Assembly (NCBI RefSeq): GCF_002875945.1
Contig: NZ_MCZK01000114.1
Span: 1-64,000, forward strand
Source: Vibrio lentus
GTDB lineage: Bacteria; Pseudomonadota; Gammaproteobacteria; Enterobacterales; Vibrionaceae
Length of the DNA: 64,000 nt
Direction of reading: 5' to 3'
A program made the position numbers and the translations under genes. The notes under the pieces are model-generated. The model was not told where the DNA came from and did no database searches. It saw only the letters and a program-made list of their open reading frames with translations. The stretch's first letter is position 1. Each line of letters opens with the position of its first letter. This document shows positions 57,171 to 61,104 of this stretch, piece after piece.

Positions 57171-58067
57171 TTACCCCATCATTTTTTCGATTGGTAGTAC
57201 TAGGATTGAGCTTGCACCCAACTCTTTCAATTGTTCCATTGTTTCCCAGAACAAGTTCTCTGTACTTACTAGGTGAACGGCAACTTTGTCTTTGTCTGTT
57301 GATAGAGGAAGAACCGTTGGATCTTCAGCGCCAGGCAGTAGTGCTTTGATTTGCTCTAGCTGAGAAGTTGGAGCGTGAAGCATGATGTACTTCGACTCTT
57401 TCGCTTGTTGAACACCCTGCATACGAGTCAGTAGTTTCTCAATCAATGCAGTTTTGTCAGCGTCGAACTCACCCACACGTTGAATCAGTGTTGCTTTAGA
57501 TTGGAAGATAGCTTCTGCTTCTTTTAGGCCGTTTGCTTCTAGCGTCGCACCCGTAGAAACTAAATCGGCGATAGCGTCTGCGAGGCCTGCGCGAGGAGCC
57601 ACTTCAACCGAGCCTGTTAGCATACAAGTGCTGAATTCAACACCCTGCTCGTCCATGTAGGCTTTTAGTAGTTGTGGGTAAGTGGTCGCAATACGTTTGC
57701 CCGCTAGATCTTGAGGGCCGTTGTATTCTTCGTCTTTGTTGATAGCGATAGAAAGGCGGCAACCACCGAAGTCTAAGCGACGTAGTGTGCGGAACTCTGA
57801 AGGCTCTTTAAGAGCAACACGGTCTAGGCGAACTTCTTCCAGTTCATTTTCACCGATGAAACCAAGGTCAACCACACCATCCATGATAAGACCTGGGATG
57901 TCATCGTCACGAACTAGTAACAAGTCGATTGGCATATTTAGTGAATGAACAACTAGGCGCTCACCCATGATGTTAAATTTAACACCACATTTTTTAAGTA
58001 GATCTTGGCACTCTTTACTTAAGCGACCTTTCTTTTGAATTGCGATTCTTAGGCGTTGTGTCTGCAT
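57171..58067 (-). CDS. hisG: ATP phosphoribosyltransferase HisG
   Basis: A 298-residue long-form enzyme, the first and feedback-inhibited step of histidine synthesis. [20 protein letters not shown] begins the catalytic domain, [14 protein letters not shown] binds PRPP, and the C-terminal about 75 residues form the histidine-binding ACT-like domain. ATG 58067 with CAGGGA seven nt upstream is preferred to 58085 and matches the E. coli length (299). Confidence 0.95.
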
Positions 58068-58124
58068 TGCTGTATCCCTGTGCAAATATTTGAATTTATT
58101 GATTATTTAAAAGCGTTAAAACTA

Positions 58125-58400: not shown

Positions 58401-58420
58401 AGGGAGGCTAATGCCTCCCT
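58401..58420 (-). terminator. terminator of the NhaC-family gene
   Basis: Stem AGGGAGGC (58401-58408) / GCCTCCCT (58413-58420), loop TAAT; the A run before it gives a U tail on the minus strand. Confidence 0.82.
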
Positions 58421-58446: not shown

Positions 58447-60039
58447 TTAGCTTTTGCACGTCGCCATTTTGCAACGAGAGAAGTAAGCCAATGCAAAACA
58501 TACTGCAACAAACGTTAGAGACGCCGCACCAAATGCGATACCAATTGAAGACGTCATACCTAGCGTGATGAAACCAATGCACGATACGAACGCTACAGAC
58601 AACGCGTAAGGCAGTTGAGTCGATACGTGGTCAATGTGGTTACAACGAGCACCAGTAGAAGACAGAATCGTTGTGTCAGAGATTGGAGAACAGTGGTCAC
58701 CGAATACTGAACCAGCCAGAACCGCACTTAGCATAGGTAGAATCAGCGCGATGTCAGAAGCTGCAGCCATGTCACCCGCGATAGGAAGCATGATACCGAA
58801 CGTACCCCAAGATGTACCTGTCGAGAATGCCATTAGGCCAGCAAGAAGGAACAAGATAACAGGTAGCCAGTGGTAATCAATGTTGCCAGTCGCTAGAGAT
58901 GATAGGTACGAACCTGTCTTCATGTCACCGATAACAGAACCGATAGTCCATGCAAACACAAGGATAAGGATAGCGCCAAACATTGAGCTTGCACCGATCC
59001 ACATTGTTCTTGCGATATCAGCCATTGGTAGCTTTTGCTTAAATACTGTCGCTAGCGCAACAAGCAGACCTAGCACGCCACCGTAAACAAGAGATTTACC
59101 TACATCTGTATTTTCGAACGCACCAAGCAGGTTGAATGCTTGACCGTCAGCAGCAAGTGCTTGGCCACCCGTGTAAAGCATGGCAGCAACTGTTGCTACG
59201 ATTAGCGATACGATTGGCATAACAAGATCAGAGACAGAACCGTTTTCGCTCTCTTCAATGTCTAGCTCTTCGTTCAGGTCATGAGCTTGCTTTTGATCGT
59301 TGTCACCATCAAAGCCACGGCCTTGTGATGCTTCAATCTCATGCTCACGCATTTTACCAACGTCTAGACCAAACCACGCTACCGCAAATACCATAAGCAG
59401 TGCGAATACAGCGTAAAAGTTCATTGGGATAAGACGAACGTAAGCACCCAGTGCAGAATACTCTGTCACACCGTGTGTTACTAAGATGCCACCAATAATA
59501 GTAATGATGTAAGCACCCCAGCTAGAAGCAGGCATGATCACACACATAGGAGCAGCAGTAGAATCTAGGATATAAGCTAGCTTAGCGCGAGATACATAGA
59601 AACGGTCTGTTACAGGGCGAGAGATAGCACCTACCGCTAAGCTGTTGAAGTAATCATCAACAAAGATGAATACGCCTAAGAAGGCAGCAAGTAGTTTTGA
59701 ACCACGTTTGCTCTTCACACGAGACTGTGCCCATTCAGCGAATGCACGAGTACCGCCAGAAAGTGTTAATAGAGCAGTCATCATTCCAAGGATAAGTAGG
59801 AATGCGATAATGCTCATGTTCCAAGTGTTGATACCACCATCTTCGATGAAAACACCAGATGCTTTAGTAAACACGTAGCTAGCTGCGTTACCTACTGAAT
59901 AATCAGCAAGTAGAATCGCACCCATGACGATACCGACACCCAAAGAAACCAATACACGGCGGGTAACAATAGCAAGAGTCAATGCAACCAAAGGAGGAAG
60001 CAGCGATAAAGGCGATGTTGCAAAATCTATTAAATTCAT
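58447..60039 (-). CDS. nhaC: NhaC-family antiporter, probably a lysine transporter (LysW-type)
   Basis: A 530-residue inner-membrane protein with about twelve membrane segments and a charged cytoplasmic loop (about residues 235-270). NhaC-family motifs include LAAFLGVFIFVDDYFNSLAVGAISRPVTDRF, STAAPMCVIMPASSWGAYI and GSVFGDHCSPISDTTILSSTGA. ATG 60039 is preferred to the TTG at 60048. The gene sits behind a lysine riboswitch, so it is likely to import lysine rather than exchange sodium for protons. This link between the L-box and NhaC-like genes has been proposed before for Vibrio and Pasteurellaceae. Confidence 0.87.
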   Translation of the reverse strand: MNLIDFATSPLSLLPPLVALTLAIVTRRVLVSLGVGIVMGAILLADYSVGNAASYVFTKASGVFIEDGGINTWNMSIIAFLLILGMMTALLTLSGGTRAFAEWAQSRVKSKRGSKLLAAFLGVFIFVDDYFNSLAVGAISRPVTDRFYVSRAKLAYILDSTAAPMCVIMPASSWGAYIITIIGGILVTHGVTEYSALGAYVRLIPMNFYAVFALLMVFAVAWFGLDVGKMREHEIEASQGRGFDGDNDQKQAHDLNEELDIEESENGSVSDLVMPIVSLIVATVAAMLYTGGQALAADGQAFNLLGAFENTDVGKSLVYGGVLGLLVALATVFKQKLPMADIARTMWIGASSMFGAILILVFAWTIGSVIGDMKTGSYLSSLATGNIDYHWLPVILFLLAGLMAFSTGTSWGTFGIMLPIAGDMAAASDIALILPMLSAVLAGSVFGDHCSPISDTTILSSTGARCNHIDHVSTQLPYALSVAFVSCIGFITLGMTSSIGIAFGAASLTFVAVCFALAYFSRCKMATCKS

Positions 60040-60153
60040 GATCTTCAAAAACCAGTTTTTTATTTGGCTAGAGATCTACTGCAGACAAACTTGATACGAC
60101 TTATCAAGCTCATGTTGAACTAAGCGAAAGGGAAGTGAACACTTCACCCAACC

Positions 60154-60326
60154 CTACAGTAGCGCTCCATAGTTTAAAATTAAGACTATGGCAGTGTTGT
60201 ACCTATTGAGCACAACCCCAGCAAATTGCTTAGATATACAATTTACTTCGGCAATTAGACCTTTCATTCCCGTTCATTGGCATCACCCCAACGAAAACTA
60301 CTTTTTATAATTGCACCTCTACGTGC
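60154..60326 (-). promoter_or_regulatory. lysine riboswitch (L-box)
   Basis: The minus strand has the conserved lysine-aptamer elements in order: GTAGAGGTGC (60313-60322), AGTAG (60298-60302), GGGAATGAAAGG (60260-60271), GCCGAAG (60246-60252), GCTGGGG (60216-60222), ACAACACTGCC (60190-60200) and CTATGGAGCGCTAC (60159-60172). Helix CCATAGT/ACTATGG closes P5. Downstream at 60130-60149 is a hairpin GGGTGAAGTG/CACTTCCC with a short U run, a plausible terminator-type expression platform, about 90 nt before the ATG. Confidence 0.92.
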
Positions 60327-60693
60327 GATAACATTATTAACCGTGTAAACCAGAGTTTAACAACAAATTAACCAAAGCATCGCATCAGGTAGCCGCAATT
60401 GTACTCATCAAGAGCAACAATGCAACATATCATTCCGAGAAAAATAGCTTTTTGTTAATGAACTAATCAATACAAAAATAGTCTACAGAAAGCAATTACT
60501 CCACCAGTCACATATCGATTTTTAAGAGATTCTTAATAATTATTATAAATTCATCAAAAGTGAGCCGTTTCTTTTTCAACTATTCATCTCACTTTTATAT
60601 TTAAATAACCAATACGAGAAATACTATTTGTTTTATTCCTAGGCTCTGTTTATTATTAGGAAGATTATTTAGTTTACCTTGATGGAAAATATC

Positions 60694-61104
60694 ATGTCTG
60701 AATTAACAAAAACTTTATTGAATATCCGTAGCCTTCGCGCATTCTCACGTGAATTAACTCTTGAACAACTTGAAGAAGCGCTAGACAAGCTAACTATTGT
60801 TGTACAAGAGCGTCAAGAGTCTGAAGCTGAAGAACAAGCTGCTAAAGCTGAGCAAGAAGCTAAGCTTTCTGCTATTGCTGAACAAATTGCAAAAGACGGC
60901 ATCGATGTTGCTGATCTTATTGCTGCGCTTTCTGGTGAAGCAAAAACAAAAACAGCAAAAGCTAAACGTGCTCCTCGTCCAGCTAAATACAAATATGTAG
61001 ATGGCAATGGCGATGAGAAAACTTGGACAGGTCAAGGTCGTACACCTTCAGCTATCCAAGAACAACTAGATGCTGGTAAATCTCTAGAAGAGTTTGCTAT
61101 CTAA
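60694..61104 (+). CDS. hns: H-NS family nucleoid protein
   Basis: A 136-residue nucleoid-associated protein that silences AT-rich DNA. The N-terminal oligomerisation region begins SELTKTLLNIRSLRAFSREL; a charged Ala/Glu coiled coil follows to about residue 70; the C-terminal DNA-binding domain has KYVDGNGDEKTWTGQGRTP with the AT-hook-like QGRTP motif. ATG 60694 with GATGGAAAA upstream is preferred to ATG 60682 or TTG 60679. V. cholerae VicH lies at the same place next to gsk. The 300 bases upstream are AT-rich and probably contain its promoter. Confidence 0.93.
   Translation: MSELTKTLLNIRSLRAFSRELTLEQLEEALDKLTIVVQERQESEAEEQAAKAEQEAKLSAIAEQIAKDGIDVADLIAALSGEAKTKTAKAKRAPRPAKYKYVDGNGDEKTWTGQGRTPSAIQEQLDAGKSLEEFAI

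Follow-up and report, generated by a model that had tools for sequence, protein, structure and literature searches.

What does a transporter carry when its domain is named after Na+/H+ antiport and its gene lies under a lysine riboswitch? A locus of this kind is found in Vibrio lentus (assembly GCF_002875945.1, contig NZ_MCZK01000114.1, positions 1-64,000 of the forward strand; this 64-kb stretch, the whole of the DNA analyzed, is called the window below). NhaC-superfamily transporters controlled by a lysine riboswitch were reportedly predicted by Rodionov in 2003 and named LysW. The original prediction for the present locus stated that this idea already exists in comparative genomics, and it does: the survey of Mukherjee (2017), in its passages on this class, describes NhaC-superfamily proteins (COG1757) whose genes directly follow a lysine riboswitch, with the Alteromonadales, Aeromonadales, Vibrionales and Pasteurellales as the gammaproteobacterial orders named, and it goes no further for the genes of V. 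splendidus, V. parahaemolyticus and V. campbellii than to list them as putative transporters whose class is unconfirmed (PMC5584792). A review of 2024, in the part that deals with this gene, describes the function as unknown and mentions lysine transport and pH as the two readings (PMC11477304). The link between the riboswitch and the superfamily is old, and its survey in 2017 included V. splendidus; what is new within the literature searched is a model of the leader and the equation of Tet(35) with the transporter gene.

The lysine riboswitch and the transporter gene

A cmscan search of the whole window against Rfam 15 placed the lysine riboswitch (RF00168) on the minus strand, at 60329-60152; the match spans the full model, positions 1-182, and its 136.6 bits (E 1.5e-36) compare with a gathering score of 30. 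The original prediction had read this riboswitch upstream of the gene on the minus strand and had proposed a covariance-model search of 60120-60330; the match falls inside that stretch, and by computation the riboswitch upstream of the transporter gene is certain. The only other match above the gathering score in the window was a histidine operon leader (RF00514; 58121-58256, minus strand, 78.3 bits), which stands before hisG (57171-58085, minus strand) directly downstream of the transporter gene. Beside the riboswitch lies a divergent H-NS/StpA-like gene (60679-61104, plus strand).

The transporter gene occupies 60039-58447 on the minus strand, with 530 codons plus a stop. Its reading frame is open from 60048 to 58447, and the ATG at 60039, separated from the end of the aptamer by 112 nt, is the start common to all 81 sequences compared, whose open reading frames encode 524-533 residues. 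The product matches PF03553 with 317 bits and is LysW-like. A terminator-like hairpin with a T run follows the gene at 58401-58420 on the same strand, a weak sign when taken alone given that the scan found two such sites in the region against 2.1 expected by shuffling. The gene is probably transcribed alone.

Alternative pairings in the leader

Three leader blocks outside the aptamer are nearly invariant: one is made up of the 3' P1 strand and its flank, and the other two are CUGCAGUAGAUCUC and GGUUUUUGAAGAUCAUG. The first two of these pair as an anti-P1 helix, through GGAG:CUCY and CUACUGUAG:CUGCAGUAG; in V. lentus its 5' arm, GGAG..CUACUGUAG, lies at 60154-60168 according to the folding ensembles, and its 3' arm, CUGCAGUAG..CUCU, lies at 60070-60084 according to alignment and folding (both on the minus strand). 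The last two blocks pair as a hairpin through GAUCU:AGAUC and ARCC:GGUU (AGCC:GGUU in V. lentus), which covers 60040-60076 on the minus strand, its final base directly before the AUG, so that it would sequester the start site.

We calculated folding ensembles for 77 distinct leaders, each extended by 20 coding bases, both free and with the P1 strand held. In the free ensemble the mean probability was 1.00 for the core of the anti-P1 helix and 0.96 for GGAG:CUCY, and that of the sequestering hairpin rose from 0.00 to 0.85 when P1 was held, the increase exceeding 0.3 in 77/77 leaders. With 60 coding bases, the corresponding means were 0.86 for the free anti-P1 core and, for the hairpin, 0.22 free and 0.75 held. 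The energy required to open positions -15 to +3 was likewise higher with P1 held, at 7.9 against 4.1 kcal/mol with 12 coding bases (77/77 leaders), 8.1 against 6.3 with 20 (72/77), 8.3 against 6.9 with 40 (63/79, reversed in four) and 8.3 against 7.2 with 60 (55/80, reversed in three). Shuffling of either arm reduced the mean opening difference from 3.5 to 1.0 and 1.2 (26 leaders, 156 shuffles). Shuffling of the spacer largely left the switch in place (sequestering hairpin 0.03 to 0.59, 68 leaders), and the switch therefore rests on the conserved blocks.

The effect is visible in the opening energy only, and it shrinks as the coding part of the folded sequence is lengthened. For the six bases preceding the ATG the unpaired fraction was 0.11 in the free state and 0.17 with P1 held, falling by more than 0.1 in six of the 77 leaders and rising in 25, and the unpaired fraction of -10 to +3 with 60 coding bases was 0.42 and 0.43, respectively; in the free state a local hairpin occupies the start site. 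The Shine-Dalgarno sequence of the gene looks weak.

A covariation tool counted no two-sided pair changes in the platform in a MAFFT alignment of 59 leaders. Since three rows of this alignment were shifted by one column, we counted the pairs by hand in 81 rows. The second pair of ARCC:GGUU was standard in 76 rows and broken in five; in three rows, which belong to three related species, A-U was exchanged for U-A, and the position next to it gained a C-G pair in three rows. Covariation in the platform is thus slight, and support for the leader model rests on the invariance of the blocks and on the mutual exclusion of their pairings.

The original prediction regarded a hairpin downstream of the aptamer as the expression platform. 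The one that was probably meant, at 60149-60130 on the minus strand, does occur in the predicted folds, but it is followed by no T run and is not the element found by the comparative analysis; as a candidate switch it was rejected, since it sits between the two strands that form the anti-P1 helix and belongs to neither competing structure. A transcription terminator was also considered as the platform, and the terminator scan found no terminator-like site between the aptamer and the ATG.

The pairings suggest the following mechanism. When lysine is scarce, the 3' strand of P1 would pair with the part of the leader that immediately precedes the gene, and with the anti-P1 helix thus formed the start site would stay easier to open. 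When lysine is bound, P1 would form and the anti-P1 helix would break, and the freed strand would pair with the AGAUC directly before the AUG, by which translation would be lowered. On the basis of these folding predictions, the riboswitch is likely to be an OFF switch that acts at the level of translation. The lysine riboswitches of Bacillus subtilis and Escherichia coli are described as OFF switches in a part of the 2024 review (PMC11477304), and the riboswitch of lysC, a known system, belongs to the same aptamer class as the transporter leader, although it precedes a different gene. The predicted OFF sign favors import.

Distribution of the riboswitch among relatives

A scan of named genomes yielded 277 relatives, of which the best 80 were kept; all are Vibrionaceae with 76-98% identity, so that the sample leans towards near relatives, with the V. 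splendidus clade nearest to the V. lentus gene. Rfam found the riboswitch upstream in 80/80 of these orthologues, with 100-139 bits, and the histidine leader was found downstream of the transporter gene at 74/80 of the same loci. In Vibrio mytili (L034, 2042-2380) an insert of about 150 bases in the P5 loop interrupts the aptamer, and for this reason its RF00168 match ends early; the conserved 3' part resumes near position 2355. The P5 loops of two other loci (L072 and L078) are also longer.

For an order-wide comparison of 247 genomes, we took the 150 best matches to the protein and the 150 best to the riboswitch, and paired them at an upstream distance of less than 600 nt. Among these matches, a riboswitch stood upstream of 14/14 homologues with at least 75% identity, of 5/21 with 66-74%, of 83/88 with 48-65%, of 3/16 with 39-47% and of 0/11 below 39%. 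The dip at 66-74% is made up of one family, f12 (15/16 genomes), and one genome of f17. Of the 16 f12 genomes that gave a match, 15 carry a closely related gene, 68-72% identical, without the riboswitch, and these 15 genomes are absent from those with any lysine riboswitch among the matches listed under strict filters. When 12 f12 loci were searched with Rfam under lenient settings, only one (L118) had the riboswitch, and a lenient search found none at 19 further loci that had no riboswitch among the listed matches. Further members that lack a riboswitch include rows of f21, a single row each of f9 and f17, and second copies in f6. The pattern in f12 looks like a loss of the whole of lysine regulation, and it shows that lysine control is separable from the transporter gene.

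By eye, a G+C-rich terminator-like hairpin lies shortly before the ATG at five f12 loci (L113, L114, L115, L119 and L122), and such a hairpin lies further upstream at two more (L111 and L121). It might be another attenuation device, or merely the terminator of the upstream gene. The locus L118 keeps its lysine riboswitch (1113-1291) and also has a terminator-like hairpin before position 1501, so that it is a possible intermediate.

We also built a tree of 55 proteins of our own choosing, with four distant paralogues left out and a midpoint root, the long branches of which make its details unsure. All 29 rows with a riboswitch fall inside one group of 45 rows (support 100/99), and none of the remaining 10 rows, which include the nearest paralogue from the same genome, has one. 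This paralogue (L087, G000:C166:74121-75050) scored 145 bits against the Tet(35) model discussed below. The riboswitch label requires six changes on the tree against 18.5 for shuffled labels, a comparison in which related rows would cluster anyway. A gain at the base followed by several losses is the simplest reading, and we put it forward as such.

Apart from Met1, five positions (376, 404, 418, 421 and 470) set the riboswitch clade apart, being conserved in all or all but one of its 29 rows and in at most two of the 10 others; as candidate determinants of the substrate they were set aside, the rows being too few. The charged residues D129, D145, R151 and D159, which lie in the 164 residues ahead of the part that corresponds to the Tet(35) model, are kept in at least 28 of the 29 riboswitch rows and in 10/10 rows of the other group.

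Relation to NhaC, ArcD and LysW

The domain database gives PF03553 the name Na+/H+ antiporter, and the V. lentus product has this domain in common with NhaC. However, against the NhaC equivalog model (TIGR00931) it scored 43 bits, far below the cut-off of 370, while two paralogues in the same genome passed with 537.9 and 532.8 bits; for this gene, therefore, 'NhaC' is the label of a superfamily and not an identity. Neither of these true NhaC paralogues is preceded by a lysine riboswitch. The two lysine riboswitches of the genome precede only the transporter gene and lysC, the product of which matched the model of the lysine-sensitive aspartokinase 3 with 700.5 bits (cut-off 455).

The Halobacterium protein ArcD, formerly nhaC3, is described as an arginine/ornithine antiporter; it belongs to the wider NhaC family and received its new name once its transport of a cationic amino acid had been shown (parts of PMC5300872 and PMC7193027, in which no riboswitch is mentioned). 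The Vibrio gene likewise belongs to the wider family, but ArcD is archaeal and exchanges arginine and ornithine in the arginine deiminase pathway, and the V. lentus product scored only 25.9 bits against the ArcD model NF052307 (cut-off 650). What defines LysW, a PF03553-type transporter of the NhaC superfamily directly under a lysine riboswitch, is found at this locus, and in the tree the V. lentus gene shares one clade with riboswitch-bearing homologues of other families.

A sequence search for relatives in the PDB found none, and the AlphaFold2 model (mean pLDDT 53.8, pTM 0.53) was too poor for a fold search. PADLOC reported nothing, and a search for the LysE family gave 18 places over the cut-off in this genome.

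Relation to Tet(35)

The original cloning of tet(35) was reportedly that of Teo et al. in 2002. The product is described as a tetracycline pump. Its model, NF000013, is 369 residues long and so takes in just the C-terminal two thirds of a protein of 533 residues. The V. lentus product scored 707.9 bits against this model (cut-off 750), the matching part being 59547-58447 on the minus strand, which begins at the internal Met165. Of five orthologues scanned, those of the V. harveyi type strain (L018) and V. owensii exceeded the cut-off with 835.5 and 834.3 bits, and those of V. anguillarum (689.4), V. mimicus (645.9) and Aliivibrio fischeri (622.7) lay under it. The V. harveyi orthologue, whose own lysine riboswitch scored 131.1 bits, matches through residues 165-531 of 533, corresponding to positions 1-367 of the model's 369.

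The first residue of the model is thus the internal Met165, which lies inside the invariant motif DSTAAPMCV. No ribosome-binding site was seen within 25 bases ahead of this Met. The reading frame stays open through the preceding 164 codons in 81/81 sequences, and 84 of these 164 residues are invariant in 45 rows. Within these codons, V. lentus and V. harveyi differ at 27 first, nine second and 87 third positions. Judging from these sequence comparisons, we conclude that the Tet(35) entry represents the C-terminal part of the transporter; on this reading, Tet(35) of V. harveyi (NF000013; AF353562) is the same gene under the same riboswitch. The original prediction warned that the role of the gene would be concealed by the name nhaC; the more misleading label, which it did not notice, is tet(35).

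A phylum-wide search with the Tet(35) model matched 24/200 genomes, none over the cut-off. Among 72,556 plasmid records, 61 had a match and none of these exceeded 60% identity, in a set from which records very close to the V. lentus genome may be left out.

The other widespread tetracycline gene of Vibrio, tet34, presumably resembles a purine phosphoribosyltransferase. The reports on tet35 and resistance, in their sections on these genes, point in different directions. In a sea otter survey, tet35 was found in all Vibrio species, and the 62 isolates tested were all susceptible to tetracycline (PMC11921324); in another survey, 116/116 isolates were susceptible and tet35 was reported for every sequenced V. 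alginolyticus among a total of 18 isolates with sequences (PMC7520990). The same mismatch of genotype and phenotype is seen there for tet34 (PMC11921324, PMC7520990). On the other side, tet34 and tet35 were taken to agree with multidrug resistance in V. parahaemolyticus N10-18 (PMC9741282), and the tetracycline-resistant V. campbellii LMB29 carries tet(A) on a plasmid and tet35 on chromosome 1 (PMC5660062). Among open-licence papers, in which the spelling tet(35) is not reliably searchable, we found none linking Tet(35) to LysW or to a lysine riboswitch, and the words tet35 and tetracycline are absent from the main texts of PMC5584792 and PMC11477304.

Discussion

Our preferred reading, to which we assign a probability of about three in four, is that the gene encodes a LysW-type lysine importer, a secondary transporter. 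The original prediction held that this NhaC-family gene is probably a lysine transporter; the aptamer on which it drew is confirmed and the predicted sign, with lysine as the off signal, would suit an importer, but the transport itself, that is the substrate, its direction and the coupling ion (Na+ or H+), we infer. An argument from auxotrophy proved uninformative: lysA is kept in 35/35 genomes tested that have the transporter gene, so that none of them must import lysine. No lysine gene was seen among the neighbors examined.

The name of the domain would also fit a Na+/H+ antiporter serving pH homeostasis, made at low lysine, when lysine decarboxylase cannot consume protons. A proposal of this kind is in print for NhaC, with the decarboxylase taking over at high lysine (a passage of PMC11477304), and a role in cellular pH is also mentioned in part of the 2017 survey (PMC5584792); the original argument, which held a response to lysine to be unexpected in a Na+/H+ antiporter, was therefore too strong. 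However, the gene falls far short of the NhaC equivalog cut-off in a genome with two genes above it, and the only two lysine riboswitches of that genome serve this gene and lysC. True NhaC was found at 22 places in 18 of the 35 genomes that have the transporter gene, and 0/22 lay less than 2 kb from a riboswitch among the best 150 matches, a set that does not include the place in G054 and others ranked beyond it. The pH antiport reading is weakened by these results, and we regard it as unlikely.

If the gene were instead switched on by lysine, it could encode a lysine exporter, or an antiporter of lysine and a product, and exchangers such as ArcD do exist in the wider family. The predicted sign is nevertheless OFF, in 77/77 leaders with 12 coding bases and in 55/80 with 60 (reversed in three), and a lysine-induced gene of V. 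natriegens is, in the relevant part of its report, a LysE homologue (PMC12925634), which makes export improbable. In that RNA-seq study of V. natriegens with lysine four genes passed the threshold, and lysC1 is named besides the LysE homologue. Slightly more improbable still is a tetracycline efflux pump that stands under a lysine riboswitch by chance. The V. harveyi orthologue does exceed the curated Tet(35) cut-off, and tet35 has been counted as matching a resistant phenotype (parts of PMC9741282 and of PMC5660062, where the strain also has tet(A)), but the model starts at an internal methionine with no visible ribosome-binding site and with an open, conserved reading frame before it, isolates of species that carry tet35 are reported as tetracycline-susceptible (parts of PMC11921324 and PMC7520990), and the plasmid records contain no close relative above 60% identity among the 61 that match.

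Returning to the lysine importer, we lean towards the wider view that the intrinsic tet(35) of Vibrio is this importer under a translational lysine riboswitch, that the reference entry is its C-terminal part, and that the presence of tet35 in a Vibrio genome would be of no use in judging tetracycline resistance. Surveys find tet35 widely in Vibrio and must then explain susceptible strains, as the reports cited illustrate in their sections on this gene (PMC11921324, PMC7520990). If the gene is indeed a housekeeping lysine transporter and only an incomplete part of its frame was registered, tet35 ought to be removed from resistance databases or marked there. The present results also make the LysW prediction of 2003 easy to test in a laboratory strain, and they offer a concrete model of its switch.
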